Below are positions 1,169 through 59,611 of a stretch of 64,000 nucleotides of DNA, in pieces (the first letter of the stretch is position 1; each line of letters starts with the position of its first letter). This DNA comes from Haliclystus octoradiatus (taxonomy: Eukaryota; Cnidaria; Staurozoa; Stauromedusae; Haliclystidae), in assembly GCA_916610825.1 (NCBI GenBank), contig OU744450.1, forward strand, positions 26,518,350 through 26,582,349, given 5' to 3'. The notes beneath the pieces are model-generated. The model searched no databases. It was not told the origin of the DNA and was given only the letters and a program-made list of their open reading frames with translations. The position numbers were made by a program, and so were the translations under genes.

Positions 1169-3748
1169 TGAAGGACCTGTATTTCATTCAGCCATTGCAA
1201 ATCAAGTCAAGGTTGAATTATCTCTCAGAATTATTGAGATCCTTGTTAGCGTGTCATTGAAATCAGAAAGCAAAGAAATGTCAAATGAAACAATGCCATG
1301 TATTGCTTTGAAAATTGAAGATGTACGCTCTGAAGTCAAATTACGTCGTTGGGATCTTTTCGTAGATGCGAGTATAGGTAGTTTGGTTTTGAATGATTTA
1401 TCTGTCACTGGAGAAGATGGTCCAATTTCATTATTGACAACACCAAAAGATGAAAACATGCTGCAAGTCAAATATAGAAAAGTAAGTAGTCAAATGTTTT
1501 TAATGGATTTTTTATTTGTTTGTATTGTACTGATATAGAGGTAATATCCAAGTGTCAACACAAAATATTAGGTATTTGCTCAGATTGCTGAAACAATTTG
1601 AATTCAGATCTGAACGACTGTGGATGAAATACCCCCCAAAAGGTCAACTCAGTGAGTCAACATTGAATGAGTCTCATCTTCAGGTCTGGGATGGAATGAT
1701 TCAGAGGGTATTGAATTATGAAGAGCTTCGGCATACTGCTTCTCCTTTTCAATCAAGGCATATCTGCCATGAAATCTGTTAAAACTGATCTGTAGTGTCG
1801 CAACTGAGAGCAGTAAAGAGCATTTGTAATCATTGATCTTAGCGGAAAGAGCCACTCCTATAGAAGCAGGAGAGTTGTACACACGTCTTTGATGGAGCGC
1901 TACTATTTCTTCAAATGTAATCATGTCATCAACCAAAATCCAAAATTGAGGTAGTGTAAGCAAGCCATGATACTACCAAGAATGCACAGTACAGTATTTG
2001 AGTTTGGTGTAATGATTATGTTTCTTTCATAAATTTGATAGTTTGTCAGGTTTATGTTTTAAGTGGGTTTAACATTGATAACATTTTCAATACCTTCTGA
2101 ATACATTCAGATATCATGTAATCATAGAATATTACTTTCAAACATCATACCCATCATTCAGCATTGCACACACATCGGTATAACGTAAACAAGAAATGTG
2201 TTTGATTTCCAATCTAAGAGTTTAATTTATCATGGATGGATGGACTGTTGAGGGTTGTACTTAACATAAAGTAAACATTTTGTTGTTGTTTCTGTTGTCG
2301 TAGTGTTTCTTCAATGGATTTCTTGCCCTTGGGCTGGATTGGATTGCAACTGACGAGGTGATATGAGTTTTATTATTTATACGTCTATGCTACTTTGACA
2401 TTTAATACAAAGATGTGAATTTTATCAATGAGTGTTATAAAAAATAAATTGCTTTCAAATGAATGATTGGTTGTGATGTATAATAACTAAACAAATTAAT
2501 TGGTCAATGTTTGATGCCGATCTGATGAGAAATCATGGTTATATTGATGTTTCAATAAACTCATTCTGCCATTCGTAGATTTTAATTTTTAATATTTTAA
2601 TTATATTAAGAGAAATAATTGAATAATGACGTCACAGAAATGTTCAATAGAATAAACATATTTAAGCATTGACATCTCCGTAATTTTTTATCAGCGTCAA
2701 ATTTTGACCAATCAATTCTTTTTGTTATTTCACTTCACAGTTGATCATTTATTTGAAGGCATGGTTTTCATTAGAAACCCTTTTCTAAGGTGTTAAACAA
2801 ATTGAAAAATGTGATCACAGCACAGCTTGAATGAATCTTTAGATTTTGATTTTATACTCTTACTACTTGAAATGGATATATGTAAATAATATTTACATAA
2901 CAGTGTAGCAGAGGTTTTTCAAGGACATATTACAATGCCTAATTGAAAATAATCTAATAAATCTAATACTGTACAGTGTTTAGACCCGCTTAAATGCAAG
3001 CCGAATATGGCAACGATTTCCGTTGCATTTCTCCGAAATGGTTTATCAAGGATTTGACCAGAAAATAGTTTAGAGGGATTCAAATTCAGGTTGCAGTTAA
3101 TCCTGTCAAAGATTGAAACCAAGTCCTTACCAGTAAATGTACCCTTAAGAATTATGATTGAGTTCATGATTGATAAATGGTCTGTTTTTCATTGAATTTT
3201 TGTTAAACTGTTCATGAACAGCTCGTGATATTTGGACATCTAACGTTCATGGACTGTTTTTACAGAGGAAACCCTCAACACGGATCATGATAATTAAATA
3301 ACTGACTTTTCTTATCTCTATACTTTTAATCTTTTTGCTGTAGGCAAAACGAGCGACTATTCACTACCGTGATGAGTTTGATGCTACCGACCAATTATTG
3401 AATGTTCATTTTGCGATGCTTGCTATTGTGTTACATCAAGAAGCACTCCTTAGTATAATGAATATGGCTGATCAATTCCAGAAACAATTAGCGTATGTTG
3501 CTGTTTCCAATTAATATTATTGTTGTTATTGTTGTTGTTTTTGTTGCTGCTGTTGTTGTTGTCATTGTTGATGTTGTTGCTGTTGTTGCTGTTGTTGTTG
3601 ATGTTGTTGTTGTTGTTATTGTTATGTTGTTACTGTTGTTGTTGTTGTTGTTGTTGTTGTTGCTGTTGTTGTTGCTGTTGTTGTTGTTGTTGTTGTTGTT
3701 GTTTTTGTTGTTGTTGTTGCTGTTGTTGTTATGTTGTTACTGTTGTCA

Positions 3749-3787
<39 letters not shown>

Positions 3788-3799
3788 TTATGTTGTTAC

Positions 3800-3848
<49 letters not shown>

Positions 3849-9800: not shown

Positions 9801-12800
9801 TGTGTATACATTTTTAACATTATAGGAAGCTGATGAGTTTGGTGAAAGACGGAAAGACGACTGTGTGACAATCTTTGGCCTGGGACATGTTGGTGTCGGC
9901 GGTGCATTAAAATCTGACAATTCCATGAAATTATCTCTTAATTTAGATCGAATAGATCTTGATGATGTCAGGAAGCAGAGTAGCCAATCAGTTGCCACCA
10001 AGTATGTATAGTTGAATCTAATTGGCTTCCAATTACTACTGTAGAGTGAAATGTATAGGTATATAACTGCTAGCTATGAAAAGGCAATTCTAGCGAAGGA
10101 GCGTCCAAACAAGCTCAAATGGGAGGTCAGTATTAAATGTTTGTTTGTTTGTTTGTGTGTGTGTTTGGGAGGATTAGCTCAGATGGCAGAGCAACCAAAC
10201 TTTTAGATCCGATCATATCTGATCGACTGTGGTTTAAATCCCCCAAGGTCAACTCAGCCTTGACTTCATCTAAAATATCAAATGAGTACCATCTGAGGAT
10301 GGTGGATAGAATAGTGTAATCCTGTTAATATCACTATTGCTAATATGACAATCCGCTTAAAATCAATAATTTTGGAAAACCAATTTCTAAAAACTCAACT
10401 ATTTAACTCCGTTTAATATCACAACCTGATTATTATCATAATTTTGAGCTGCCCCAAGACAGTTTATTAACGAGGTTACACTGCACTATCTTCTGATGGT
10501 GGATGGAATGGTCCGGAAGGAATTGCATTGTGAGCAGCTGCGACGCATTGTTGCTCACTGAGAATCAAGGCCTATCTTTTTTTTTTGTTTTTGTTTTTTC
10601 AAGGCCTATCTGTCATGAAATTTTTTGAAATTGATTTGAAGTGTAGATCAATAAAGAGCATTTAACATCATTGCTCTTAGCAGAAAAGAGCCACTCTAGA
10701 AATAAAATAATGGTATGGGTGCCTTCGGTAAGGCTATACTATCTCAATTACTACTATGAGAGGTAGATAAATTGACCACTATAAGAGGGTGACCTTTTAA
10801 TAAGGGTGTATTCAATAAAATACACTATTTTAGACATTATGACAAGAGTGACCACTATAAACAGGTGGCCGTTGTATAGAGGTGACCCTTTTTTCGTTTT
10901 GTGATAGAATGCTACAATTTCAAGCATCAACAATAGAGGATGAGGAAGTTCAAAAAATGTTATCAATTAATTTTGAACAAACAAATAATACGGATAAATA
11001 CGGTAAGTCTACATCCTTGTTTCTATTTTTTGTCTATCAATTATCTTATCTAAGCCAAGCTAAAGATTTTTTGGTTCTTTGAAAAGTTCAGAAAAAAAGT
11101 TGAAAATGCTTACCTTTTGTCAAACATTGTAACTAAACTGTTCTTTGCTTGATTAAACGATTATATGGTAGTTCTTATGTGGCATCAGTGTGCACTGGTA
11201 GCTCAATGGTAGAGCATTCAATGCACTCGGTGCGGTAGGCCGAGGCTCGATTCCTCTTCGGTGTACACACATTTTCTGCAATATGAATTGTAATTGATCT
11301 CATTGTTAGTTCGAAATAACACGTCCCTCAAATAGACAAGCATTTGTGCTTAAGATGTGTATGTCAGTCGTATGTAATAACATTCAAACTGATTAAAATA
11401 AAGATTAATATTGTTACATTTCACTGAGATTTCAACTTCAATACTTGTTACATTTCATCAATCATAACAAAAGTATTAACATTGTTTTTCAGTGGATATC
11501 AAACTGAGAAGTCTTGCCATTGTATTAAACATTGAGTTTTTAATGGCCATTTCTAACATGGTAACTGCTCCACTGCCAAAATCAACAACAGAAAACACTC
11601 CTTCAAAATCAGCTACATCACCCCTTGCAGACACATCAGCCGGGGCCCCAGCACACTCTACTGCTGTGACAAACGACAGTGAATGGCCAACTACGAGGGT
11701 ACATCTTGTATGTCATCATCCGCGTGTTATCTTGCTTGCCGATGCACGGGATGTGAATGCAAAAGCTTTATTCCTTGAGGTATAATTAGCAGAATTAAGT
11801 ATAATTAGCATAATTAAGTATAATTAGTATAATTGATTGTGATGATAAGCCTGCTAAAATAAGCCTGTTTAAATAAATTAAAAATTATTAATTATTGTAA
11901 GCTTGCTGTCGTGATCATATCCTGCTCATTGTCGTGACCAGAAATTAGACACGCTCCGTTTTTTAAGATTTTCAAGTGTCACTTTTTCAATCGCTTATTT
12001 CACAAAAACTACTTATCTTTTTGTCGTAAATATTTGAATGTAGACATTAGGGTGAAGTAAAAATTTTGAATTTGAGTTTTTCATGAATCAACCCTTATTG
12101 TGAAATTCAGACTGAATATTATAGTATTAATTTCTCTTCCAGCAAACTTAACTGCATTCCCCAAGAATAATAACCGGGGATTTACCCATGAAAGTTATAT
12201 AATAAATGTAACTCAGCTACAATCACTATATAACAACAATTTATCTTCTAGTCTGAAATTAATTTCACATACTTTGAGAAATATGGAAATCAGAAGATGG
12301 TTGCTGTGGTATCAGAAACAGAAATCACCTGTTCGTCCCTTGATAGAATCAAATGTGGTAAAATGGGATCCAAGGTAAGCTATACTTTCCGCATGCTGTC
12401 AACATTCACACATTGTCTGGTGAGAGTTGAGAGTGATGAAGATAATCTATGTTCAATAAAAATTTCTCGCATTCAACTACTGACTATCAGGGATACCATA
12501 GTTGCCAATCTTGGACATGTTTTGCAGAATAAAGATATGTGAGCGTAAGTTAATAGATAGAAGAATGAATAAGTATAGATTGATAAAAATATTAGATTTA
12601 TCAATTGAATTGAAATAATGAACCGCCTCATTTGTTGATTTATGTGTAACAACCTGTGTGAATGGATGATCTGTGGAGATTGAAAATTATCTCTAATTTT
12701 ACTGTAAATGAGACATTCCCAGCATTAATGATGCATACTTGTTGCTATCGTAATTGAGTAGAAAAAGCCCTTCTTTTGATAATTTGCAGTTTGGAGCTGC

Positions 12801-14057
12801 AAGAGAAAGCTGTGGAATAGATTTGATTTGTTCTGCTACAAAAAACATAAACCGAAAATAAAAACAAAACCTCTTTTGTAACCTGGTTTAAAAACCAGCG
12901 GTTCTGATGATACCATTAACAAAATATTTGGTTAAAAACTGACAAATAGAGAGATGAAGATACGATTTTTGAAGCTCTCTTTTATATGTTAAGATTGCTG
13001 TCACACAACCTTACGTGACCTGGAACATTCAAAAAGTCAATTCCAACTCATTATACATAGTTTGAGATAGGTTTAGATTTCAATATACGTAAGTCTACAT
13101 TTCTCAGATTTTTAAAAAGTTGATTTTCTGTAATTACATTATGCATGTATCAAATTCTCCACCTGATCAAAGTGACCAGCAGACATCAACGTGGATCTTA
13201 TCAACAGGTTTCACTATAATTCCAGGTACTTTCACTTGCTCAATTTGATTTCCATTGTTCGATCCCACCAAAAGGAAAACCTCATGTAACATTATCAACC
13301 ACTAAGATTGGTATCAATTTATCACCTGCAACAATCCATACAATATCAATGGCTGTCAAAGAACTACCAGCCAAAAAGGTAATTTCCAACAACGCTATAA
13401 TAAAATTATAATAATATTCCGTTTTTAATTAACCCCGTAAGCACAGGTGTTTGTTTATTGGGTGACGTTAACAGACAAATATAAACATGTATTCACCAAC
13501 GAAGAATTGAACCAGCCCTCCCGCAAATTGCAAATACTCTGCCACTGAGCTACCAGTGTAACAGTTATCGGCCAACCACGTTCATCATTTATTCATAATC
13601 AGAATACGGTTTTCAATTGAAATTAGACACTGTGCCTTTAATCAACACCATTATCAACTACAGTACTTCGATCCTTCCTTTAAACTATTGCATTTGTATT
13701 TCCTCTTTTCCGTATAATGTTACATCATGCACAGTATATATTGTATATCAGTTCTTACCGTCTCATGTATAAACAGAACCTAACATCACATCACAGTCAG
13801 CTTATTCCTTTTTTTTAAACAAATTTCTATGAATTAAACTGTTTAATCCTAATTATTATCACAGATGTTGGCTACAAAATTACATGAAGTTACATGAGAA
13901 GTCAGTTATCTCCGATAGTCTGTTAGATGAATGACTTATATCATATTTTATGTTTTACAGGCTGAGGACCCAGCTGAACAACCAAAGAAAGATCTTTCTA
14001 AACTTTGGGAAATAGAAACTAGATCTGAGGAAAGTAAACCTTGGTATCTTGGTCCAG
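1169..14057 (+). CDS. VPS13: VPS13 exons 1-20: lipid-groove region before the insert
   Basis: Exons: 1169-1481, 3344-3492, 3880-4037, 4128-4247, 4366-4417, 4903-4951, 5043-5081, 5349-5465, 5803-5883, 6744-6991, 7454-7601, 8684-8774, 9218-9304, 9623-9738, 9826-10001, 10908-11002, 11493-11779, 12252-12374, 13226-13378, 13961-14057. They encode about 899 residues of alternating beta strands and polar loops, as expected for repeating beta-groove modules. Recognisable family stretches include [35 protein letters not shown] and [19 protein letters not shown]. The block ends with [19 protein letters not shown], matching the conserved LW...WYLG linker of VPS13A/C. The final exon ends in phase 1, where the Tudor-like block joins. 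Confidence 0.93.
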
Positions 14058-17000
14058 GTAAGAATTAAATGACAAAGGAGCGGTAGATATTTTTTCTGTG
14101 AAAAGAATATAAAAATTTCATAAGCCATTCATAAATAAAAGGTGACAGGCACATGTCGACTTGTTCATTGTAAAGTTCTGGCATAAGTGATGTTGAGAGA
14201 CATGATCGAGGGTAAGGGGAATAATTGAGCTGCAAGCAAGCTTATTTTACCTGCCCGAGTGGCTTCCAGCATCCCAAGTGCTATTTTTTTTAATGGAGTA
14301 TGGCGAAACCAGTCATGAACACTTCTTCAAAATGGTAAACATATTTTTATAATATCATGTCCGAAATTGAAATTGGTATGTCTGCCGTTTGAGTTGTTTT
14401 GAATTTTTGTGTGGGTTAATCAGAAATGTGGTTCAACTTCATCTGTATTTCGTATTGTATTTCTTTCTTGTCTGTATTGCATGCTCAGTCAAGCAATCAA
14501 CTCTCTATTAATCCTTTGATAGTTTTATGGTTTTATGTAAATGTTTTAATCACCTTTTATCAAAATGTACATTTGAAATCGGGTAATTTTATGTTGATAA
14601 CATTTTTTGTTGTTCCTTTTTTCGTTTTTTCCGTTAAAACTAGGCCTGAAGAATCAGGCTTCATGAAATCCAATGTTTAATTTTTCTGAACGGTTCACCA
14701 GCTCTTAAACTTTTCGCAGAGGACTTTCATCAACTTTGATTATTTATTTTATATTTATTTTCAGTTGACGATAGTAAATTGATGCCTGGTAGCATGGTAT
14801 GGTGTCGTAATCGCCTTGGTGATTATGAATGTGGCTTTTTATCTCAAAAAGACACCCATTGTACTGTACTATTTCACCCTGAAGGTCAAATTATGCATAG
14901 CTGTGCAGAAATTAATGCTGTTCTACTCGACACAAGCGCTCTCAAAGATCAACCACAGCAGCATGAATTTATTGTCGGTGATAACGTTATTGTACATCAT
15001 CCAGATTCAGACAGTGGCATTGTAGGACTTGTTAAACAAAAATGGATTAATGGACAACAGGATGTTTTAACAATTGATCATCAGGGATCAGTTGACAGTA
15101 ATGGTAGTTTGTCAACAGAAATTGATGGCAAAGAAGAAGCAAGATATTTAATTGATTTGTCGAAAAATGGAAAAGAAACATGGACAGATGAAAAGGATCT
15201 GGTCTATTTGCCATTTCCATCATTACAAGGTAAACCTATTTTTGATCCTTTTTTTATACAAATTACAGCCTAAGTGTAATGGTTAGGGTTATGAACCTTT
15301 GGCCACAGGGTTCTGGGATCAATCCCTGGCAGAAGCAACACTATCTTTTGTTTTCTTTTTTTTTCATTTCAGTGGTGCCTGGTGTTGGAGCTCTTGTTTT
15401 TGCCAGATGGAAGACTGGTGTTTACCATAGAGGAAGAGTTCGCGCTCACAAAGATTTCAAATGTATTGTTTATTTAACTGACCTCGAAGAATCTCTTTCT
15501 CATGATCTTGATGACCCGTCAGCAATTGTTGCCAATGCGTGTCCCCCTGTGGAAAGATTGAAACCTGGCGTGAGGGTGATATGTTCAAAGCAAAATTCAA
15601 AATGGTAACTTTTCTGTTATAATCATCACCTTTATTATTATCAATATATTGTTATTATACAGATGTTGAACACTTTCCGTAAAATATGGGCTGTATAATA
15701 TAAACAACACAAATATTGTGTCATGAGACACAAGAAAGGCATGAAAAAATCAAATCGTAAATTATAACGAATATTGTGCAATATGATGCAAGCTTGAATC
15801 GTTGAATCATGATTCATGATTACCCTGGTTACCATTCATACCCTGGTTACCGTAGTCCAATTATGACATTTGATTTAATTTCAAATCACAGATTGAAGCT
15901 TATTTGTGTATTGCTCTATTGACAGTGTTTCACTTGTAAACAATTCACTTGTAAAAAATTATATTATAAAATAGATTGAGTGAAACTTTCATTAAACCCA
16001 GAAGTTTCAGTTCCTCAAATCATTTTGTTGAAAATGTGATAAAATGTCTTAAAATTTATGGAGGCTTGGTACTAAGGTTCTTATAAAAATATGATGATTG
16101 TAAAATATAAAATATAAATTTATATAAAAATATAAAAAGTATGTATTTTGACATATGGTGATGTAGGCTATAATGAAGAATGCAAATTTCCTGATGAGAA
16201 AATGTCTATTATGATTAAATTTGACATAAATATCTGTAACAATTTTTACTAATGTTGAAACATTTTTTAGATGCACATACAATATCTTTCTTGACCATTT
16301 TCAACTAATGTTTTAATTGGTTTGTTGTACGTTTAAGGTTCTATCCTGGTCTTTTACGCTCAATTCAAGAAGATGATAAACCTGATAAGTATGTAGTACA
16401 TTTGGATGACGGCGATGCTGTTGCTGTGTCATTGGGAAAAATATGTCTATTACCAGCTCCTAACGCAGACGGTATGTGTCATACATAACTACAGTCAAAC
16501 TCGGTTAATATCCCCTCTTTTAATATCTCACCTTGCTTAATATCCCTGCATAAAACTGATTTCTATTTTCCTTTCTCCATACAAACTCTCATATTCCTAC
16601 CTCGCTTAATATCCCACCTTGCTTAATGTCCCGCTTTTCATCCGTACCAGAGGGGGGATATTGAGCAAGTTCGACTGTATTTAAAATATTTATTTTGATA
16701 AACATATTTGTATGAATTTCCGATTCTTGTTTGTTTATTTTATAAACATTTTACAGTGAATCCCGTCTATAACAACCAGTTATAATGAGAAGTAGAGAAA
16801 TTGACTATATGCAGGTGTTCTTTTTATAAAAATTACAGTAAAAAAGACACAATTTCTTCCTATTGGACAGCGAAATGTTTAAAACAATACCAGTCTTAGC
16901 AATTAACCCTTAGAACACATAATAACCTGTAAATTTAACATTGTAACAATCGTCTATGTATCCAAATAAAATCACATTCCATGTATGCTAGTATCTTTTT

Positions 17001-20000
17001 TACGTTGGAGTGAGTGTGTATGAGTTTGATGGCCGGATGCCTTTTCTGACGCCAACCAATAGTGCTTCTGCCAAGGATTGAACCTCATACTCTGCTGACC
17101 GAGGCTGAACTCCCTAACCACTACACAAAACACGAAGGTCCCATACAGACTGGTGATCATTTTAACATGTTTGTGACTATGTTTTCATTCCAGTTCCACC
17201 TGGTGTTGGATGTTATGTCTATGTACGTGTTGCAAATGGTTCACCAAATTATGAGAAAGGTGTTGTTCTTGAGAGAGAAAGAAAAATCTTGGTGAAATTA
17301 ACCAGTAATGGACAACGGTTATCGATTCCAGTCACAGACACTGATGCTATTGTATGGAATATTCCGCCATCTCTAAGCGAATTGAAACCACGTGTTGAAG
17401 TAATTGCAACCCGTGAGCAAAAGAGTGCATGCATGTCACGTGGAGTAGTTCGTGAGATTAACACCATGAATGTTGGGAAACCGCTTTATAGAATTGAATT
17501 CTGGGATAATAAGTTGCTATGGGTTTCCAAATCAAGAATTCGATTGGTACAATCCGCCGCAGGTATACCTTGAATTTATCCTCAACTTTTGGCTCATATA
17601 TACTTTAGAGATTGTCGGTGCTAACTCGCAACTTTTTCACAAACTGAACCAACTTGATTTGATAATAAACATTTTCAATGAATTTTATGTGTTGAATATT
17701 TTATGTGAACCTTTCTACCCGGTTAAATGATAACGCTGGCTACATTAAGTCCAAAGATAACAGGCATGAAAAAGATACTCCAATCAGCACATTTCTCCTT
17801 TTGTATCAGCTCCAAAACAAATAAAACACTGATCTAGCTATTGTCTTAATCGGGGTTTTTGTTTCTTTACTTTATTCTCATGATGAATAAGGTTCATGGT
17901 GAATAGCAATGATTTACCTTGGTTACCGTTCGTCATAGCCGAATTATAACATCCAAATTCATTTCCAATCACAATTTGAAGAGTGTTTACGTGGCATTCT
18001 ATTGACAACGTTTTGATATTAGGGTTTAATAAAAGTTTCCCTGGTTCTATTTTATAAAATTCAGTATTCAACAGTCTTGTCATTTTCATTTGTATCTGTT
18101 CATAGATGGAAATGCTGCGGGAGATGAAAATGAAATTGGTGTAAGAAGAGAACAGGTGTGCAACGAGATGTAGGCCAGATTTTCAGGATCATGATGTTTT
18201 GGTCATGTTTAATGTTTAATGTAGGTTAGAAGGGCAACAAAGCTGATTCATACAAATGTATTTAATGAATTTAATGTTCAGAACACACCAAATTCAGGAA
18301 ATCCCTCCGATTATGAAACATGAAGTATTTATTCATGCCAGTGTTAATAAGTGAATAATAAGGGATTACATCACTCTTGTGAGTGGGTTATCGGAATTTA
18401 GATCCACGAGTTCACTAACAACAAACAAGAAATCCATATCGTAAACTCGGCGGCCTCGTTTACGATATGGATTTCGAGTTTGTTGTTAGAGAACGAGTGG
18501 GTCTAAATTTCGATGGCCCACGAACAAAGAATGATGTAATCATTTTAATAATCATGTAACATAACCTTTGTCTGGAACATCAATTATCTCTCATCAATTT
18601 CACTACAACAATGATTTGTTTTGGCTAATTTAATGTTTCATTGATTTTTCATTAAATGCAATTTGAATGAAATTGTTACGAATATCATTTAAAAATATAA
18701 CGCGAAGAATTCAATATGTTTGCAATATTAGAAATATACAATAATTACATCTGAATAGCAAATCCCAAGTTGTTACTTTGTTTAATTTCTCAATTGAATT
18801 TTCAATTACAGAGTATACATTTAAGTTGATTTTATGAAAAAATATTCAATCTGTTGCAGCTAGTAGCCATTTTCAAAACATGTGTTTTAATTGTTTGGCT
18901 AAAACCCGTGCAGGTATAGGTCTATAACCGCACACGTGCGGGTATAGACCTATACCTGCACGCTTTTAGGGGTTGCCATGGAATTTCGTGGGTTGTCTTG
19001 ACATAACTGCTAAACACGTGGTACAAATCCACCAATCATGATACAAGTTTTTTTCAAGTGATTATTAATATATAATTACAAATTTTCAGTTTATTATGGA
19101 TATTGCTGGCATCAAGATTCGCCTAGAAGGATATCTTGGTGCGCAAATTGTCCCATTGCTTCAAATCGACACAAGACTACACGCTGAAGTAAAAGATTGG
19201 TCTTCAAAGGTAATATTTAGACTAGCAATAGAAACTGTTTGTAGTAATTTGTAGTTTAACTTTTCTGCAATAAAAATCAATAAACTGCCCTGTGGCTGTG
19301 GTGATAATAGTCAGCCCTGTTTGGTATTGCTTCTGGGTGCAATCACTAGCTAACAATGCAGAACTATTAAGACAGTCGTTGAAGATTATCTTCTTGAGAT
19401 GATCACGTGATGTGCCACGTCGTATGTATTAATGATGTCATTGTCAAACTATCACCTAAATAATATAATACTGTAGAAGGATGTAGTCTTCTTCAGTGTG
19501 CCTCTAACTTTGCATAATAAATATATAAACGTATAAACATATAATTAGCAGCATTATAATTTCTCAAAAATGCTACAGAGACAACCAATATGCGTACATA
19601 CTTTTATAATTGATATCCTCTCCCGCTTTTAATGTGACCCCCTCTGCTCAACTGAGTATGTACTTTGAGTATGGTTGGCCCCTTTTCTTAAGTATGTTTC
19701 TGATTGAGATGTATTTTGTTATTATCTTGTTTAGCTTGTTGCCAGAGCTGATGCAACACTGACAGCCAGTTACTATAACGAAACCGTTGCTGAATGGGAG
19801 TATTTACTAGAACCAGTTGAATGTGGTACTGGTCAAAGACCATGGGAATTAGCATTTCAGGTAATAATAGACATTATGCTGCATTATATGCACTATGAAG
19901 TAGAAATTCTCACACATATTGTAAAAGATTTCTGTTTCTCTAAGCTTGGTAACTAACGTATACAGGAGCTGCCATTCAGGAAAATAAATCGAAATCAGAG

Positions 20001-26000: not shown

Positions 26001-29000
26001 TGCCATCCTATAAGTAGCATCAAAAATACAAAATAACCCTGACAAAATACAAGATTTTTTCTACATGACTAATTACAATATAAAAGAATAAAGAATCTTA
26101 GTGTAATGGTTGAGGCATTGCACCTTGGTCGGCGGGATTGTAGATTCAATTCCTAGCAGGAGTATTTTTGGTTTGTATCAGAAAGGGTGTCAAGCCATCC
26201 AATTCACACACTCAAAATAGGCTAACCAATCAGCCAATGAAAAAGCTATCTTACCTGGTTTGTTATAGAATGATAAATCCAACAGCATCAGAAGTTAGCA
26301 TAACAAAATATGACATTGTATTTACAATTCAAAGTGAAGAAGAGTTAATCATTTATGCTACATTACTTCCTACTTGAGGGGATGCTCAAAACTTTATTGG
26401 CTTATTTTAAGTTTTGAGTATCCATGGAATACGAAAAGGATAACTTGTAGATTATAAATTAGAAAATAAAGTAAACAAATTGATTACAAATTTACTCAAC
26501 TTCATACAATATTGCGAAAATGAAAATTGTAAATTATGTATAGCGTATTACTACGGTAAACACACTGTAGCTACTGTAGTGATTTGAACATAGGTTCTTC
26601 TACTGATGTAAACATTTAAAATTTTGTTTTTGATGATTTCAGGGCATGCCAGTATTCCAAACTTTGAAAGGAGGTGACAGCTGGCCTCTTTTTGCTGTAA
26701 ACCATTCAGAGAAACCAATCATTGACATCAAGGTAAGTAACTCATAGGTAATCAATTACTTCTGTTTAATCTTTTTTTAAATAATTGTTGTACTGCCGTC
26801 AAATGTTCATGAACTTTCCCCACAGGAATTCATGAAAATGAAATTGCCCAAACCTTCATGAACTGCTCATGGAAGTTCATGAACAGAACAGTTCTAGAAC
26901 AGAACATAAATATTCATGAAGTGTTCTTCAAAAGTTGGGCAATTTCACATTCATGAACTCATTAATTTACTATTATTGTTTTGCATTACAGCTTTGTAAA
27001 TACAAAGGGCAGGACTGGCTCGGTCGATTCACAGCTACACCTCGTTCTGTTGATCAACCAATCGAAACGTTTACTTTATCTTCAACAACTAATCCTGATC
27101 TGAAACAGGTAACTATCGTTATCAATTTATGAAACTTTCTATTTCTGAGGTAATTACAGGGATTGAAAAATTGCCATTATAAAATGGTGATCATTATGCA
27201 GAGCTTTGTCTCAGTAAATCCATTTCAATTTCACTAATGAAATGATTGCTATAGACAGCTGACCTTTCCTGTGAAAACAGTTTGTTAATATTAAATGGCT
27301 AAGTTTTCATGGAGTGTCTTTATGGACTCATCTTGAACCTTTCGTGAACTGTTGCAATGTTGTACTCATTGACTGTCTGCAGAGTATGTAGAGCAGTGCT
27401 CTCTGGTTTCTGGTTTTGAGGGTTTAGCATACAGAATTGTTTGCTATTGTTTGAATTTGCTACACTCATGCTGACAGCTGGAGTGATGGATATTCATGAT
27501 CAGCTAAGATTTCAAAAACTTACTTCGATGTGGAGGGTGAAGAACAAAAATGTGCCTGATTATATTTGATAAAAATTGGAAAAATTGTCTTGTCCATCAA
27601 CACTGGCATTTAGTAATGAGAAGTTTTATTTTCAAAATGCCATTGGAGGTCGTTTAGATTTAGTGGAATTTGTGAGTGAAACTCTCTCTGTTCTGATATC
27701 AGAGCTACCAAAAAGTGTTGACAATTTCAAATTTATCTCAAAAAGGTTTGTAAATAAATTTTGATGGTTATTATTGATATTCTTCATATATTTTTTTATG
27801 TTATAGGAGGTGGTTGGCTATATAACATTCTCTGGTTCTTTATCGATCACAATCTATTCGCCTTATTGGTTGGTTAACAAAAGTGGGAAAACATTAGAAT
27901 ACCAGGTAGCTTTATATTATAGCTTACACAGAATGTTTTTGAGAACTCCTGTTCAAACTAGGTATTCTCATTTGTGATGTTAGGTTTGAATTTTGAAATT
28001 GATTGTGTTTTCGAACCCAGTTTTACTGTGGTGAATTGGTGTCATAACTCTAAACCAATCAGATTCATGGAATCAATTTCGTCATAATACAAAACGCTTT
28101 AGCACAAACTCCCATATTACTGATACAGTTATAAGTTTAAATTTGTAACTTTCTATGAAATTTTAAACAGCAATATTTTAATTTATAAAACTTCTTGGAT
28201 GTTGTTACCTAGATTGAGAAATTAGAACTGTTCGATATGTAACTAATGATTTACCTACATTATTTATTGAAGATTCCTGGTGAAAACAACATCTTTGAAC
28301 ACGAGGGAACAGCAACAGAGCCTTTACTACTTCTTATCACCGGTAACAAGAAAAAGGTAAAATGTCTGATATCCTTGATTAATATTTAATTATACCAATG
28401 ATTTATGAAGGATAAAGACGACTGCTATACATTTACTAAATAATAAAGGAAGCTGAATACTGTAATAAGTTGATTTCGATTACTTTTTCATAAATACTAT
28501 ATCTTCTTCACTGTATCAGTATTATTATCATTGTCAGACCAGTGGACTAGCTGGACATGTGATGTGTATCACTCAGAAGGACTCTGACGAATCTCTTTGC
28601 AGTAGCAAAACAGATGTCAGGCCTTATCATTAAGTACCACTGCAAAAAAATAACTGAGTTCATGAACTGCTCAAAATGTGTTAATGAATTTACAAATGTT
28701 CATGAATACCTTATAAATAGCTCATTATATTTTCTGATAATAAAGCTTGTGATATTTTAATGAACAATTCATGAAAACTTCATGAATAGTTGATAAATAG
28801 TTTATGGACAGCTCCTTATCTGCCTGTTAGCATGTTTCATGAATCATTTAATCGTTCGTGATCAGTTTATTAGAATTGGGTCATTTATAGCACACAGACT
28901 ATTTTCATAGAGGTCTTATTGCCACATTTGAGTATTGTCTTAATTTTGACAACTGTTTAGTTTTCATTTGGTTGATTTATCCAATTAGATGCGACTACGT

Positions 29001-32000: not shown

Positions 32001-35000
32001 ACTAATCTCCTAAAGCTCCATATAAAATAAATTCTACGTACCCTCTAATGCCTGGCTCTAATATCACCTCATATGTGTGTAGTATCTTATACAATCTTTG
32101 CAAACACAAATAATATACCCTGAAAAAATATTTAACTGTCAAAAGGCTTATATCTAATTCCTTGCTGAGCTTACTACTTCATAGAATTTATTATTGCATA
32201 TTTCCAATAAATTATTGTAAATTTGTAGCTGTTGATAATATTATTTTTTCCATTTTAGAATGAATTTGGACGAGTCTGTGGTGATTCTGAAACAGCAGTG
32301 TATTGGGTCAGCTTCTTAGATGGGCTACAACGTGTTCTTTTATTCACAGAAGATTTCCGTGTTGCGTATAGGGCCAGCCAGGTACTTTATAAATGAAAAG
32401 GGCTTCAATTTGAATGATAAAGAGTTTCTACAATGCACACTGCATAGATGTGATATTTGATGAAAGGCGTGTTGCAATATTATTCAACTGCGATCCAATC
32501 TTTCTGCTTCTTTCAAGCTCTAAACTGAAATTTTAGGTCAAACTTACCATCATTATCGACTTGAAATCCTCTTCAAAGTTCGATATCAGCAAGAACTGTT
32601 TTTTCAAAGAAAGCACATCAGGTTTACCCAAACAAGTAAATTATTCTTACATGTTACCCTCACAACAGTGAAATCCAATATTTCAATCGATATAAGCAAG
32701 AAGTCTGTTCTTAAATTTAGCAAAACAGGATTTCCAATCATGTAAAATATTCTTACTCAAGCTATCACAGAATAATCAAGATTTAATATATACAAGAATT
32801 TTATCTTATTTTTAACTTACCTTGTATGACTTACCGTAATATATACAAGAATATTTATCTCAAAAAGCAAAACAGAACTTGGAAATAAGTGAAATATCCT
32901 CACAAGATATCCTTCAAGAGTAAACTTTTTGAGTTGATATGAAGAAGAAAGATCTGTTTTCTCAAAACAAGAAAAGCAGAACTTGAATGAAGTAAAATGC
33001 TCTTACAAAAATAAAATTCTAAGATATTAAATAAAATTCCAAGATATTAAATAAAATTTAAATATATTATAAAATCAAGAATATTTTTCTAAAAAATGCA
33101 AAACTGAGATAAAATCAAGTAAATATTCTTACAAGATGATCAATTAACAGTTTACATATTTTAGGAACAAACTTTACGTCCGTCGCAAGAAGTTGTTGTC
33201 GAATTAGAAGGAATTGGTTTGTCTCTTGTTAACTCTGATAAAAAGTTAGAAATTGCTTATGTTGGTATCAGGAAGTAAGTTTTTTTAGCTGCTACCATTG
33301 TTTGTATATTGTACGCTTCGATGTTTGTGCTTCAATTTTAATTTTCTATCCTGTGATTAAAAGGAGTGATGTTGTTTGGGAAGAGAAAGGCAAGAATCGA
33401 TGGAAGGCAATGAGTGGTAAGTTATGTGTTGCCTTAGAAACACAGTTTCAGAAAAAGCAACTGAAAGAATCTGGCTCAACTGAAGAATTCTCACGAGTAG
33501 CAATTGAAAACCTAGAGGTATATACTACGAGAGAAATAACATTATTCACACATTGAGTATCATTTAGCTTGTAATATTATGTTCTTGTTATTTGAAAGGT
33601 TGATTTAAATCGGATGGTAATCACTCGTCCTAGTAAAGGTCGCATAAGACGAACATTTCATAGTGGCTTATCATTGAAATATATCATTTCACCAAATTTG
33701 ATGCAGTTTTATGCTAAAATCAATGCTGTTCAGGTTGGTATTAATAATTATCGCCATCTAAAACTGAATATGTATTGTTAATGAGCTATCACGTTTGAAA
33801 CTTGAAGGCAGCATTCACCAAAAGCATGCATTCAGCTTTCAATTGCCTGCCTCAAATCTAAATTGAATAATAATGATAAAGAGTCCGTATGGTTACACAT
33901 TTGTGTTGCTCAGACTTTCATACTTTATGCAATCTTCAGACAGAGAACGCATGAACTTCTGAGTAACACAGCTAAATTCACTGTGGTCATTGACCCTATT
34001 GAATCATCAAAAATCGGCACATTCCTTTGTTCGTTCCCCCTCCTTGTTTCCAGTTAATTACTATATGATCAAAAATACGATTTTTATTTTATTTTGTTTG
34101 TATTTTTAGATTGACAGTCAGATTCCTGGTTCAATATTTCAAACTGTGTTACATCACGTTGCACCTCCTAAATCTATTGCTGCAGAAACAGGTAAACTTT
34201 TTAATATGATTTTTTTATATTTTATTCAATATTTGTGAGACATGTTGTTCATATTGTGTTTGACTCTACTCTTTCAGCACCAAAACCTCTTTTGGAGTTC
34301 AGTTTAACATCGCGAGTCAGCGATAAGAAACATGTAAACGAGATCAAGTAGGTTCTCATTGTTGATAAAATGTACGATTTCTCAGCTACTATACAATGGG
34401 AGGTGGGAGTGGGTAACACCAGCTCTATGTGGACGGAAGTGGGGGTGCCACATTTCCATCGCCACAACAATCATGTGAATGCTACCCAAAGCCAAAAAGT
34501 TTCAAACATTTTTTAATTTTTAATTTTTTTTATAAATTTCACCAAAGTTCATAATCTACAATTTGTGATTAAAAAGGATTTTTGTCAGCTGGAATATGGA
34601 GTCATAGACCCAAAAAAGTGACATATCCCCACCCATTCTATTGCTTGTATATTTTCCTTCACATAGATTTAGTAGCATTTTGAAATTAAGTTTGATTTAT
34701 ATTTAAATACATTTTCTTTCTCGTGAAGTTTATTTATTTTTATATTTTTATTATGCTAGTTATCTGAAATTGCTTGTACAAGAGATGGATGTCCGAGTTG
34801 ATAAAGGTTTTTTATTGGGTATTATTGACTTCTTTGGTAGTCAACAACAAAGTCTAACTGATGTAAGTTGCCGATCGTCTTCGATTTTGTTCTCTATTGA
34901 ATATACTGTATAATCTTTATATTTGTTACAGGCTGAAAGATATGAATACGATATGACAATTGTCAAACAAAAATTAGAAAATAGTAATGATTTCCATGTA

Positions 35001-45990: not shown

Positions 45991-48900
45991 TCATTTGATT
46001 CTTGATAACAGCGTTTTGATTGTACTCATGGCGTTACTCTGCCTACGACCTTGTAAACTCATACGCAAACTACCTTGAATTGTTTTTAAAAAATCATCAA
46101 TACTACATGAGACATCAATATTTTCTGCTGTTGAAATTTCATTAAACGAGCAAGTATATGTGTTAGCTAAATTTAAACCTTTAGCGTGATCAACTTCTCT
46201 ACCTAAACACAATTCAATTTTGTTACCAAGTAACAGAATTGGGATCGGTTTGGTATTTTGAGACGTAGAACATCGCACGGAACGAATAATATGTTGGGCT
46301 GTTTCAAATGACTGTATTGACGTGATAGAATACACAACAATAAAACCATCGGCTGGATCAACAAATTGGTTCCAATCCTTAAAAAAAGATCAATAAAAAC
46401 AAGTTAAAAACGGACAATTCTATCGTCTAAATAAGACTGATATTGAAACAGCTGATTCATATAAGACGGATTGATACTATATCGGACAATGCGAACATGA
46501 AAACAAGGATGGTTAAATCACAGCTCGATATGCATAGGATTTCATATATATGTCATGGCATGTTGAATATTTAAAGTTCAGGGAGATGTCTCCCATCCGA
46601 CAAGCTCAGAACTTTCGAAAATAAAATTTACCCGAGAACCTACTTTTCATACTAATGACAACTCAACATTTCCCTGCGCATTTTATGGTCTATAGTGAGA
46701 ATATGTCGAAGATTCCCTCAAATTGTTGAATTATATGTTTATGTTCTCGTTCTGAGTATATATCCTCGTTAAAATGTCCTCGCTATACTTCACCTATATT
46801 TGGTCAATTATTAGTCAAATTGCTTTAGTCTATATGATTAACGGAAGAACTCGATATCATCGAGCAACACGGGATAGGTAATCAAATTGCTGGACATTAA
46901 ATCCATTTTTACACTGATTTCATGGAGTTTTGTATCATCTAAGGTAATATCATGTCTCTGACTATTCATATCCCTTCTATCGTAAACAAGATATATTATG
47001 TGATTTCAAAACCATCATATGCTTGGATGGATGAAACTGTTTATTTTTTAGTTTTTGTACAAACCTTTTGAACAGTATCCCACATTTTTACTTGAATATT
47101 CTCACCATCCAAAACAGCTATCCGCTCATAACATCTTTCTAAGTAAAGATCCATGTCAAAATAATATTATTGTCTATAAGAAAATGGAGTGGATATGTTC
47201 ATTACTGCCATGTTCTGTTCCACGGAGTATTCAAATGACCCGTTTTTAAGGAAGGTGCAGTCAAACTTACAATTTGCCCGGGTTGACATGGTAACATGAT
47301 CAAAATTTAATTTCTGGTCATTGAGTCAGTAAATTGGTTATTCTTTGAAAATATTTTATACAATGGAATTTAGAATTTTACTCAAATGCTGAAGCATAAA
47401 ACAATTCAGCATTCTTATCACAATTGGAAACCAATTGTCAATTTTGAATGCATCCTCTCCTCAGAAATGACTCTTAAATCAATTTCAGACAACGGAGATG
47501 GATAATATACCGAGACTGTACAGATTACAGATCGTAAAGATACACCTTACCTGACGTTACAGGCAGCTTAGCTACTGATCCAGTAAACTAAATTCTAACA
47601 ATGCAGAGTCCTGACGATCTGGTCGATATACGGTGTGTATGACCCACCATACGCTGTGGTACCTACACCTATATCATCCCTGTGAACGGAATGGGTTATA
47701 GTTATATTCAACACTATAGATAATCTATATATCTGCCAAACGAATGAGGTATAGCCTATAGACAACACTATCGATTATTTTAAATTTATTTTGTTGAACA
47801 TTCTATAATGAACAAAATAAAACATGTAGAATTCTGAATGACGTGAGTATGTTTTATTGCTTGCTGTCATTATTGTTATACACGTATCAGAGTCATCCTC
47901 TCCCTGACAGTGACCAACCTCCATCAACATTACATCAAATGAATATATTATATTGTCAATACCAGTTACGTAGTCACTCATTATATGTTACACTGGTACT
48001 AACGCAATCACCCGCTCCACCCTTGCAATTTGTAAGTTTGACAGCACCTGCCACTTTTTTGGTTCAGCTGAGAAAATACCTATTTGGTAGGAAATTTCAG
48101 AATCTGGGACTGTGAGTCTCCTTTTTTTTGACCTTCTATAGAGAACTTCGAAATTAGAAGAACTTTGAAAAAAGCATTGATTTTTGGAGCCTTTTAGGGC
48201 GGTGAAGGAAAACCGATGTCAACATCTTTAAATGATCGATGTGTGGCTACATATTAGAGTTGATAATGGATAATGGTCTTGATTGGCGGTGCAGGTTGCA
48301 TCCAATCAATGTTTATATATTACCCCCTGCAATTCAATAACAATATTATGTGATAACATCATTATCTACCACCCCCTTAGTGTCCTTATAGTGTGATATA
48401 GAACATGACTTACCAAGGAATGGGTCATACTCGTGAAGATATCTGTTTGTTACGTAACGTACTGCAATTGCTGTGAAGACAAAACCAATTCATGTTCAAG
48501 ATTACAATAAGATGCAGTAGCCCTACAGTATTCTAAATTAATAATTGAACATCAGTCAAGAGCTCGTTTATTAACCAAATAAAACTATATTTTTGAGGAT
48601 GCATGAATATACGCCGTGACAATATATAGCCATCATTTACAGTATAATTCAAATAAATACAATTTCATATTACGCAATATTATCTAAAGATCGCAATCAA
48701 TTCAACGCGTGAAAGTCTGAGTATGGAGTAACGAAAAAAGGCTTTTGCCTCATCTTAAATATCTCTTATTCTATTATGCAATGAATATATCATATAGCAA
48801 ATTCAAATTAAATTACAAAAACGATAAGAAATTTCTTTTTCTTATTAACAATGCATGCTGAAGTGACTTGCCAAGGCGCAGTTATGTGCCTCAACACGGA

Positions 48901-56000: not shown

Positions 56001-57409
56001 AACAAAGTAATTAGTAATTAATTACTTTTTCGGCGAAGTAATTAGTAATTAATAACTTTTTTTGTAAAAGTAATTAGTACGGTAATGTAATTTTTGAATT
56101 TTTAGTGAAAGTAATTTGTAATCTAATTAATTATATTTTCAAGTAATTCTCACAACACTGAACAGGAATGATATGCGACACACAATAACATAAGTGGCTG
56201 CTACAGGATGACTTTAACTTGAGAGTAATTGTAAAAAAAGTTGATGGAAAGTGACAAGAAGTCACTGAGCATCCCTATTAAATAACAAATGAATGAGTGC
56301 AAGCGTGCTTGTATGATCACACAAACTATCCAATGTGGTCGTGAACTATCATGCGTATCGTTCAATATTTTGAGAAAAGCTTGAATCGGCGAACGGTGAT
56401 TTGAACTAATGTTCTACTTTACCCAGGTTACCATTCGTCAAAGCCTAATCATGAAATTCAAATTCAATTCGAAACACAAATTGAAGAGTGTTCGTGTGGC
56501 GTTTTATTGACAGAATTTCGATATTAGAGTTTTAATAAAAGTTTCACTAATTCTATTTTATAATAGTAAGTATCTAGCATGTGTTGTTATTTTTATTTTA
56601 ATCTTCTGCAAGGTATCAAAAGGCTCAAGCTGAGACACAAGTTCTCCAACATGTACAAAAGGAATTGGGAAAGTTAGATCAACGCCTAGCTAGTGATGTT
56701 GAATTACTGCGTGTTAAAATTGAAGAATCAAGTATTGACTATCACCATGCACAGTAAGTGTGTTATCACTCATTGTTGCTTAAATTGCCGTTCTTACTTA
56801 AGTCTTACTTCTTCTCACTTATGGGGCTTACCACTTATCAAATTGCGGCATATCAGACTCAGATTAGTTGACTGTCTTGCAACACATCAATGAAAGTTAA
56901 ATTTTCTTCTAAATTTACTAATCATTTCTTTTGGAAAGTTCATGCAGACAAACCACTTAATAGTGATGGACTTCTCAGATACTGTTTCTGGAATATTTAT
57001 GAATTTATTATTATTCTATTCTTGAAATTATATTTTCCACCATTCAATGATTGTATTTATCCATAGGAAACGATATGAGAAAGCTGAAGCTGAATTTATT
57101 GCCTCAAAAATGGATTTACATGCAAAGAGTGAAGTAAAAGATGACCTTACGCATCATCTATATACTATTATACAAGAAAATGAAGAAAGGAAAGCTAAAA
57201 AATTAGAAGAAATCATGACTAAACTTAGTTTAGATGGAGATTATGAAATCCCATCAAGTCCCGTTGAAAAGGAACCTCCGACTCATAGGCCTACACCAAT
57301 TCAACACCCAGTAGTGTTACCTTTATCAAAAATTGAGAATGTCGAGAAGGCAGATGACGCAATTGTCAAAACAGACACATCTCAAACTGAAATCAAAGAT
57401 TTAACGTGA
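53007..57409 (+). CDS. GORAB: GORAB (RAB6-interacting golgin), four exons
   Basis: Exons 53007-53353, 55070-55180, 56613-56753 and 57067-57409 make 942 bases, 313 residues plus stop; all phases join. In the family, GORAB (SCYL1BP1) is a trans-Golgi golgin that binds RAB6/ARF and scaffolds SCYL1 for COPI recycling. Signatures: N-terminal GWSGFTDEELSRIQ (family GWAGFSEEELRRL), a basic low-complexity linker, and the diagnostic coiled coil LQHVQKELGKLDQRLASDVE, LRVKIEESSIDYHHAQKRYE, KAEAEFIASKMDLHAKSEVK and LYTIIQENEERKAKKLEE. The variable C-terminal tail is rich in Pro and Glu. A probable AATAAA lies at 57712-57717, inside the gap to the convergent PM20D2 gene. Length is close to vertebrate GORAB. 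Confidence 0.95.
53394..54076. mobile_element. Non-autonomous TIR element, about 680 bp, in GORAB intron 1
   Basis: Long terminal inverted repeats of about 65 bp. The left starts CGGTGTCTGTAACTTGCGTG and runs through GCGTTTACAGGAAAT to AATTTATCACCT. The right starts AGGTGATAAATTATGGCG and runs to CAAGTTACAGACACCG. Both arms carry alternating TGCG/CGCA purine-pyrimidine runs. The interior is AT-rich with no transposase. TCTG flanks both ends but a clean target duplication is not obvious. Confidence 0.85.
54598..54741. mobile_element. TIR element (CAGTCAAACCTG family), diverged copy
   Basis: Starts TAGTGAAACCTGTATATAAC and ends CACTATAACATATTTATCTG, with the inner words GACCACTATAAACAGGTGGC shared with 21276-21457. 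It lies in GORAB intron 1. Confidence 0.75.
56390..56570 (+). repeat. Dispersed repeat, copy 3 of 3
   Basis: Shares TACCCAGGTTACCATTCGTC, AATTGAAGAGTGTTCGTGTG and ATATTAGAGTTTTAATAAAA with 17860-18075 in VPS13. Located in GORAB intron 2. Confidence 0.7.
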
Positions 57410-57916: not shown

Positions 57917-59137
57917 TCATTCAAATTTTTGTTTTGAATCATTGAATTCTTGTTTAATTTTTTCAACAAGATTTTTATTTTTAAGAATATCAATTCCTGT
58001 CATAGCTAATACTTTTGCAACATCAAGTGTTGGTATTTGAGCGGATTGATTAGCTGATCCTTTAGCAAATTCTCTCGTATGATTGGGTCCTAATGTCAGT
58101 ATGGTATAAGTAGGATGAATAGATGGTAGATATTGAGAAACATTTCCCATATCTGTAGATGCAGAAAATGTTTGTAATCCTTCAAGTGATGATTGTTCTG
58201 ACAAAGTTATAAATTCAACATCGAAAAGGCTTGCATTTTTTTTAAACATCTTTGATATTGTTGAATTAGTTAATAAAGATGATCTTTTCGGTGCTAATCT
58301 ACTTGTTTTGAAATCACATCCAGTGGCTGCAGCTGCTGATCTAGCACATTCAATCATTTTTCTTTTTAATTGTTCGACTTCGTAATCATTGGATGCACGC
58401 ATATAGTAGTGTAAACTGGTTTTTGAAGGTATCTTCTGATAATCTGAGGTATCATGCTTCTTAATTACGCCGTGTACCTTCCATGATGCATGGAATTGTT
58501 GACGCAATGCACTAATGGATGAATAGAACAATATAGCAGCATCTAAGGTATTAGATGTGTTTGCTTCAGAATATATTGTAGTATTTTTTTTACTGTGAAA
58601 ATCAATATGAATTTCTTCAATTGATAAACATATTGGATCAACTAGATTAGCAGTATAAGGATGTACCATCATGCATACATCAACACAATCGAATGCCCCT
58701 TTTTCAATCATTAGCACTTTACCAGCTGCCCCTTCTTCTGCTGGGGTACCAATCACAACAACTGTCCCACTTAACCCTTCAGTTTCTTGTAGAACATGTT
58801 TTAAAGCAAGGCCTGCTGCAATACCTGTTTCAGCTATTAAATTATGCCCACATGCATGCCCAATATCTGGTAGCGCATCATATTCACAAATTAAACCAAC
58901 ACGTGGCCCTTTTGATTTAGAATATGTTGCAACAAAAGATGTTTCTAATGGCCAACCACATTGCACAGTGAAACCATTTTTCTTGAGAAATGTTGTTAAA
59001 AGTTGATGGGCAAAATGTTCTTTGTAGCTTAACTCTGGGTGATTCCAAATTTCTTGACTGATCATATTAAAATCATTCTTTCTGCTATCGATATATGAAT
59101 TCGCTAACAGCTTTATATCACAAATGTGTTGCTCCAT
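57917..59137 (-). CDS. PM20D2: PM20D2-like M20D peptidase, intronless
   Basis: 406 residues in one exon, close to the usual PM20D2 length (~430). PM20D2 hydrolyses beta-alanyl-lysine-type dipeptides and helps proofread carnosine synthesis. Matches: CEYDALPDIGHACGHNL (84-100) with metal ligands Cys96 and His98, GTPAEEGAAGK with Glu134/135, MVHP with His159, STDMGNVS (328-335), and PNHTREF with His353 near the end. The lid region where the family has GKASHSA reads SKKNTTIYSEA (182-192), so the conserved lid histidine is missing. The following N-x-IP motif is YQKIP. The two-metal centre looks intact, so the protein may fold and bind metal but with altered or lost substrate handling. It is divergent from YEATS2 and has a minus-strand poly(A) signal at 57868-57873. 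Confidence 0.92.
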   Translation of the reverse strand: MEQHICDIKLLANSYIDSRKNDFNMISQEIWNHPELSYKEHFAHQLLTTFLKKNGFTVQCGWPLETSFVATYSKSKGPRVGLICEYDALPDIGHACGHNLIAETGIAAGLALKHVLQETEGLSGTVVVIGTPAEEGAAGKVLMIEKGAFDCVDVCMMVHPYTANLVDPICLSIEEIHIDFHSKKNTTIYSEANTSNTLDAAILFYSSISALRQQFHASWKVHGVIKKHDTSDYQKIPSKTSLHYYMRASNDYEVEQLKRKMIECARSAAAATGCDFKTSRLAPKRSSLLTNSTISKMFKKNASLFDVEFITLSEQSSLEGLQTFSASTDMGNVSQYLPSIHPTYTILTLGPNHTREFAKGSANQSAQIPTLDVAKVLAMTGIDILKNKNLVEKIKQEFNDSKQKFE

Positions 59138-59611
59138 TTAGGATTGAATAGCGTCCTAGCTCCTAGTCTGTGTTGTCTCCACTAACTTTTTTACGTGGCA
59201 ATATCTGAAAGTTTCGCAAATCATTATCGTACCGTAATTATTGCGGTGCATTGTACTAGGCGCATTGTTGACATGTCTCTTTTGGAAGCCATGTTGTAGA
59301 TGACTCGTCTGGAATATTTTAGAGTTCGACGAAAGATGAGTTCCAACGAGTGATTTGCGAAAGGAAGTCACAAAGATTGAGTATGATTTTTGTCTTATTA
59401 TTGAAGGCCTTTGAAAGGTAAATGCTAGTATCTTCTGCGTTTCAGTATACTACTCTTCTAACACATTATAAACATTTATCAATTTGTAATTCTTGAAAAA
59501 GGAATGTTGAAATTCGGCAAACTATGAAGCTGCAACCTTGAGACTTTTGCTTTGAGTTGAGCATGCTAAAATATCAACAGTCGATCGCAACCCTGAAGAC
59601 GGCAGACAGCA
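59138..59611. promoter_or_regulatory. Bidirectional promoter interval, PM20D2-like / YEATS2
   Basis: 474 bases between two start codons in head-to-head orientation. No TATA box is evident. ATGs in the interval are not in frame with long coding sequence. The 71-codon open frame at 59156-59371 (-) has no family pattern and may lie in a leader. Confidence 0.55.

Follow-up and report, generated by a model that had tools for sequence, protein, structure and literature searches.

We analyzed a window of 64,000 nucleotides from the cnidarian Haliclystus octoradiatus (contig OU744450.1, positions 26,518,350 to 26,582,349 of the forward strand; all coordinates below are those of the window), which covers much of a gene for a VPS13A/C lipid bridge protein interrupted by a block of four additional coding exons. 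The block encodes 400 residues arranged as three consecutive pairs of modules (A1 and B1, A2 and B2, A3 and B3). An initial annotation, made from the sequence alone, described these as six related Tudor-like modules that might dock VPS13 to a methylated partner or act as a scaffold. The gene lies on chromosome 5, and its start appears to fall outside the window. A genome search with the VPS13_M profile returned at least 2 places at E 0.01, the present gene and one on C10, among the 49 of 533 candidates that were scored.

Exon pieces from the window, joined into a mosaic of 1371 residues, match human VPS13C (1.3e-122) and VPS13A (1.2e-95). The mosaic passes the Pfam cut-offs for the VPS13 middle region (PF25033; 93 bits, cut-off 50) and, downstream of the insert, for the VAB adaptor region (PF25036; 32.6 bits, cut-off 22.6), and a 178-residue flank query alone reaches 40.5 bits on PF25033, under the cut-off. 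Further downstream, an exon without a Pfam match aligns over SDVVWETKP...RWKPM of human VPS13A, and we take the human stretch concerned, SDVVWETKPKKKARWKPM, to be the WWE domain (groove domain after VAB).

Judged from the alignments, the insert sits between two repeating-beta-groove (RBG) domains, after the end of one and ahead of the other's first strand. With the insert omitted, the downstream exon matches human VPS13A at 2.7e-10 and VPS13C at 4.3e-9, and the stretches spanning the join score 51.5 bits against VPS13C and 53.2 bits against VPS13A; the upstream exon aligns with VPS13C 2225-2253 in the correct order, with a non-significant score of its own (-2.3 bits). Human VPS13C has about 26 residues (2254-2279) between the aligned segments at this site, a gap with a soft left edge because the upstream exon has no significant match alone. 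The site would thus be placed about one groove domain before VAB, and the loop probably corresponds to the RBG9/10 loop of VPS13A, as numbered on the basis of PMC7613979.

Table 1. Exons of the VPS13 gene around the insert, and neighbouring genes in the window
Feature	Position	Strand	Remarks
VPS13 exon before insert (exon 20, earlier count)	13961..14057	+	ends KPWYLGP plus 1 base, phase 1
Insert exon 21, pair 1 (A1 + B1)	14765..15229	+	phase 1-1, acidic, charge -13.3
Insert exon 22, A2 and first part of B2	15373..15604	+	phase 1-2
Insert exon 23, remainder of B2 (FYPG...LDDGD)	16338..16471	+	phase 2-1
Insert exon 24, pair 3 (A3 + B3)	17194..17562	+	phase 1-1, basic, charge +7.5
Small linker exon	18106..18140	+	phase 1-0; predicted from splice sites and phase, no homologue
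VPS13 exon after insert	19090..19209	+	first strands of the groove domain preceding the VAB region
Exon aligned to human VPS13A stretch SDVVWETKPKKKARWKPM	33364..33517	+	alignment to 9yg5
Ras-family GTPase fragment	45991-46389	-	neighbouring gene
M20 peptidase	57917-59137	-	neighbouring gene, one long open frame
YEATS-domain protein	59597-61663	+	neighbouring gene, one long open frame

The four insert exons had been placed correctly: they have AG/GT borders and form a single open frame of 400 residues, an outcome expected by chance at about 9e-13 given the stop-triplet rate of introns. The outer splice sites have acceptable scores (acceptor 7.4, donor 5.1), and both outer junctions fit the VPS13 phase. 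The proposal that VPS13A/C continues in frame on both sides stands as regards the downstream exon and the join-spanning alignments, and needs one amendment, the small linker exon, which had not been listed and is required because the phase must pass from 1 to 0 before the FIMDIAG exon. An alternative donor for this exon at 18155, which is the choice of our gene finder, preserves the frame too, so that the exon encodes 12 or 17 residues depending on the donor used. The fully spliced product has no internal stop, and neither does the product from which the whole four-exon block is removed. The frame likewise remains open, with 0 stops, when exon 21, exons 22 and 23 together, or exon 24 is skipped, and is broken when exon 22 alone (10 stops) or exon 23 alone (15 stops) is dropped. 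Exons 22 and 23 jointly make up a phase 1-1 unit that encodes pair 2, so that all three pairs are phase 1-1 units, as is usual for modules spread by exon shuffling; such a unit-wise layout would permit regulated inclusion.

The gene finder, which combines splice and codon scoring (codon use from two other genes of the window, general splice-site frequencies), was run on bases 1001-38600 of the plus strand with the insert exons withheld from its input. It picked all four insert exons with exact ends, and the exon at 14765-15229 had the highest summed coding score among its exons, partly owing to its length. The program over-predicts, with doubtful small exons in intron 20 (two), in intron 23 (two) and between exons 25 and 26 (three), and its chain of 3278 residues contains 1 internal stop. 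Scored in frame, the insert exons reach 0.12 to 0.24 bits per codon, similar to the 0.09 to 0.48 of four other VPS13 exons and above the values for 100 pieces of intron (mean -0.23, maximum 0.08), a gap that is partly built in because the pieces were drawn from the background introns. Taken together at the level of sequence, the insert appears genuine and the unusual domain combination real.

Tudor relation of the modules

The 400 residues pass the cut-offs of three Tudor-type Pfam profiles, namely DUF4819 (32.5 bits, cut-off 27, best stretch 206-260), BAHCC1-like_Tudor (29.4 bits, cut-off 28, best stretch 216-273) and DUF4537 (PF15057; 29.5 bits, cut-off 27, best stretch 222-323, that is, B2 and A3), mainly through B2. 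The only single pair to pass any Pfam cut-off is pair 2, with BAHCC1-like_Tudor (28.5 bits, cut-off 28); its DUF4537 score is 22.1 bits, under the cut-off of 27. Among solved structures, the best relative is BAHCC1 (8ye8), which matches pair 2 at 1.5e-5 and, when pairs 2 and 3 are combined in a profile, reaches 9.8e-7, over the B modules, with SETDB1 next. A four-Tudor profile compared by hhalign matched B2 at E 9.8e-12 and B3 at E 4.5e-7. The same genome contains a tandem Tudor gene, L010 (G000:C1:11305708), to which both modules of pair 2 align colinearly (z 10.8, 0/1000 shuffles; hhalign E 3.3e-6). Pair 2 bears a weak likeness to L005, the DUF4537 gene of this genome (5/1000). Pair 3 is significantly similar to BAHCC1 Tudor2 and to a second Tudor gene, L011 (G000:C5:12801993), with 0/1000 shuffles each.

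Module by module within the insert (15 module pairs, 2000 shuffles each), 3 combinations stand out, A2-A3 (0/2000), B2-B3 (1/2000) and A1-A2 (2/2000), followed by the weaker B1-B2 (33/2000) and A1-A3 (37/2000), whereas B1-B3 scores were reached by 1973/2000 shuffles. As whole units, pairs 2 and 3 are related at 0/2000 (z 18.3), pairs 1 and 2 at 10/2000 and pairs 1 and 3 at 69/2000. The kinship of exon 21 to the other pairs is thus found for A1 only, and B1 is not convincingly akin to any other module. The description of six related modules needs to be narrowed accordingly, with A1, A2 and A3 and B2 and B3 linked by the three leading combinations and B1 left without a convincing relative, and the repeating DDG motif that accompanied it is literally present in B2 and in no other module.

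Several results weigh against a Tudor identity for the entire insert. Alone, pair 1 has no Pfam match above cut-off, gives no hhalign match to the four-Tudor profile (E 0.15), and is non-significant against each of five Tudor sequences (z ≤2.5, 30 to 556/1000 shuffles, the last with L005). Pair 3 alone passes no Pfam cut-off either (DUF4819 19.7 bits vs 27) and is non-significant against L010 (85/1000), L005 (133/1000) and SETDB1 (47/1000). Despite these, B2 and B3 are clearly Tudor-like as judged by profiles and alignments, and A2 would be Tudor-like as well because pair 2 is colinear with L010. In pairs 2 and 3 the kinship to Tudor domains is thus strong for the second modules, through direct matches, and is drawn for the first modules from colinearity and repetition. 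From the profile, alignment and within-insert results it follows that two tandem Tudor units are well supported; pair 1 is linked to Tudor modules only weakly and is a probable Tudor unit through its first half, A1, alone. The Tudor/DUF4537-type assignment of the initial annotation thus survives for pairs 2 and 3 and is weak for pair 1.

Possible roles of the insert

We compared three aromatic cage positions between the insert and its relatives, reading the third position of the A modules by hand from pairwise alignments (A2 and A1 from those with L010, A1's own being non-significant at 226/1000, and A3 from its alignment to A2). All three residues are aromatic in BAHCC1 Tudor2 (W, Y, F), SETDB1 TD2 (Y, Y, F) and the second Tudor of L010 (W, Y, Y), two are in L011 (W, L, Y), one is in L005, and none is in the first Tudor of L010 (L, A, L). 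None of the 6 insert modules has more than one: the B modules have H, I, L (B1, no aromatic), K, Y, L (B2, one) and R, S, F (B3, one), and the A modules N, E, F (A1), W, H, L (A2) and V, E, L (A3), so that a three-aromatic cage is found in none of them. The A modules are uninformative in this respect because their counterpart, L010 Tudor1, is also bare, and the B modules carry the argument; as the aromatics are mostly lost there, canonical methyl-lysine reading is unlikely, though conceivable for B2. B2 does retain the tyrosine of the FYPG motif and both pocket aspartates. Matched by spacing, its DDGD aspartates would be the counterparts of D2022 and D2024, which line the BAHCC1 Tudor2 pocket according to PMC13285377.

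We consider it somewhat probable, reasoning from position, modularity and relatives, that the insert is an accessory module of a cnidarian VPS13A/C in which three tandem Tudor-type units work as a protein-docking side arm. The sequence shows where the insert lies, its reading frame, its modular exons and the kinship of pairs 2 and 3 to Tudor domains, and a scaffold role, the other suggestion made for the insert at the outset, is possible and is the reading we prefer. Two well-supported units and one diverged Tudor-type unit would be strung in the loop between two groove domains, forming a folded side arm that may attach VPS13, close to its acceptor-membrane end, to a partner protein without recognizing methylation. 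Docking might recruit the lipid bridge, or hold or release the VAB region, by which the end of the bridge is closed off in soluble VPS13C (PMC13430412). Units could be included or left out by splicing with the bridge kept intact, since every pair is encoded as a phase 1-1 unit. The net charge changes along the arm, passing from pair 1 through a nearly neutral pair 2 (-0.4) to pair 3 (-13.3, -0.4, +7.5), a gradient through which units could contact one another or bind to acidic surfaces. Accessory domains in the inter-groove loops of VPS13 are known and have been proposed as partner sites; the sixth element of every groove domain is a loop over the groove, and several other VPS13 inserts lie in the loops between groove domains (PMC7613979). 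A bolder version, in which a chromatin-type tandem Tudor arm beside VAB recruits or switches the lipid bridge and splicing sets the number of units, is quite unlikely; if true, it would connect the bulk transfer of lipids with a partner that is modified or a ribonucleoprotein, a connection listed for no VPS13 in the literature searched.

The alternatives differ in what they make of the same observations. One is that the arm acts in cis, lying over the groove or against VAB and gating lipid flow, or merely acting as a spacer, with no outside partner. Inter-groove loops pass over the groove (PMC7613979), the site probably lies about one groove domain before the region that blocks the bridge end in soluble VPS13C, and the opposite charges of pairs 1 and 3 could pair together; as nothing that we found indicates a contact of the arm with VAB or the groove, we regard this as rather unlikely. 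Docking to a methylated partner, as initially proposed, is not supported. That the modules recognize methylated lysine or arginine on a partner, bringing the lipid bridge to a modified protein, would suit an insert whose nearest solved relatives, BAHCC1 and SETDB1, are chromatin readers and whose B2 keeps the FYPG tyrosine and the two aspartates known from the BAHCC1 pocket, and the bare L010 Tudor1 illustrates that first modules of tandem Tudors may be cage-less. It is nonetheless improbable with 0, 1 and 1 of the three cage aromatics in B1, B2 and B3, against all three in BAHCC1 Tudor2, SETDB1 TD2 and L010 Tudor2 and two in L011, the more so as each single cage substitution in PHF20L1 Tudor1 strongly lowers or abolishes binding.

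The two remaining alternatives concern whether the block belongs to the protein at all. It could normally be absent, being a nested gene or a set of exons that are skipped or confined to a rare transcript: the VPS13 frame stays open without the four exons, and on read-through a stop follows 3 codons past exon 24, which makes a separate short product conceivable. An early stop past a donor is, however, the chance expectation, and each of the four donors is followed by a stop after 1 to 14 codons; moreover, the outer junctions agree with the VPS13 phase at the acceptor and donor scores given above, and the coding signal is like that of the four other VPS13 exons, which makes this reading unlikely. 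An assembly or annotation artefact would be conceivable insofar as one assembly only stands behind the insert, but that assembly is chromosome-scale with a consensus quality of 56.6 (PMC9975415), the 4 genome matches of the insert are all its own exons, and the frame is intact across the four exons, so that an artefact is extremely improbable. A protein-docking side arm remains our preferred reading of the insert.

Origin and genomic surroundings

We found no donor gene for the insert in the genome, where its 4 matches are its own exons. Profile searches of the genome recovered 1 place for DUF4537, 1 for DUF4819 and 3 for BAHCC1-like Tudors (one of these 3 being the insert), figures that come from exon-by-exon searches in which the best candidates only were scored and split domains were missed, the DUF4537 search overlooking the insert itself. 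In viral contigs, 7 pattern matches to the insert were obtained and none was confirmed as a relative. An NCBIfam scan yielded one match, far under its cut-off. Dispersed repeats in introns 21 to 24 say nothing on origin because such repeats are common. One of them, an element of about 65-120 bases present in the window at 15273-15337, 17018-17129, 26098-26214 and 63593-63705, is read as a short interspersed nuclear element (SINE) derived from a transfer RNA (tRNA) and occurs at 40 or more genome places at least, the query included. Another lies at 15839-15999, 17913-18097 and 56418-56604, thus in two introns within and after the insert; its copies at 17913 and 56418 are 79% alike over 187 bases and 68-69% alike to the stretch from 15839. 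An Rfam tRNA match at 11192-11265 resembles 13488-13558, and ARAGORN found no tRNA in the window.

Nine 87-base tandem repeats with 94% matches occupy positions 307-1088, just 5' of the exon at 1169-1481, the first long exon picked by the gene finder, and a TTG-type triplet is repeated about 110 times at 3520-3848 between predicted VPS13 exons. The three neighbouring genes are listed in Table 1. In the mitochondrial COX1 gene (G000:C33:3135-4475), TGA encodes tryptophan and there are five AGA/AGG codons. Two of these fall within the compared stretch, one at a position that is arginine in both solved oxidases (LLTDR) and the other at one that is arginine in one and lysine in the other (NMR/NMK). 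AGA and AGG remain arginine codons in non-bilaterian animal mitochondria, and the codon use of this COX1 fits a non-bilaterian animal and argues against a tunicate.

Comparison with known VPS13 and Tudor proteins

Human VPS13A and VPS13C (PDB 9yg5, 9yqp) share with the Haliclystus protein the groove domains around the insert, the VAB region and a C-terminal match. The difference lies at the insertion site, where the 26 residues of human VPS13C, a segment with a weakly aligned left edge, face 400 residues plus the linker of 12 or 17 residues in Haliclystus. On the Tudor side, the YPG and DDGD elements are common to insert B2 and the tandem Tudor of BAHCC1 (8ye8), and L010 is the colinear counterpart of pair 2; the insert differs from both in having three pairs instead of their one and in B modules without most cage aromatics. 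DUF4537 (PF15057), a two-module profile, passes on the whole insert and fails on pair 2 alone.

The statement that no VPS13 with such modules has been described agrees with the open-licence literature searched, in which the titles and abstract openings of the papers listed yielded none. The word "tudor" has 0 uses in the main text of PMC7613979, and PMC12081312 and PMC9213790 contain it only as the name of an author. The HHpred set of Levine 2022 (PMC7613979) comprised 8 organisms, none of them a cnidarian, with some wider searches. Such few-organism surveys, our case suggests, may overlook accessory-domain variety in animals. Nearly all partner sites on VPS13-type lipid bridges are undetermined according to the same source, and accessory domains are thought to supply some of them. 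A natural VPS13A/C arm near the inhibitory VAB region would be a concrete case in which to ask if an insertion in a loop is able to redirect a lipid bridge or to gate it.

Among the VPS13 inserts reported by Levine 2022 (PMC7613979) are UBA and ricin lectin domains in VPS13D, WWE in VPS13A/C and a discoidin-like domain in VPS13B, and in plants PH and C2 domains, beta-tripods and a beta-helix. These resemble the Haliclystus insert in being folded, mostly beta domains placed in a bridge loop, and differ from it in fold family and site. The insert thus extends the known habit of VPS13 proteins of carrying accessory domains in their loops, in a Tudor-type version unreported in the literature searched.

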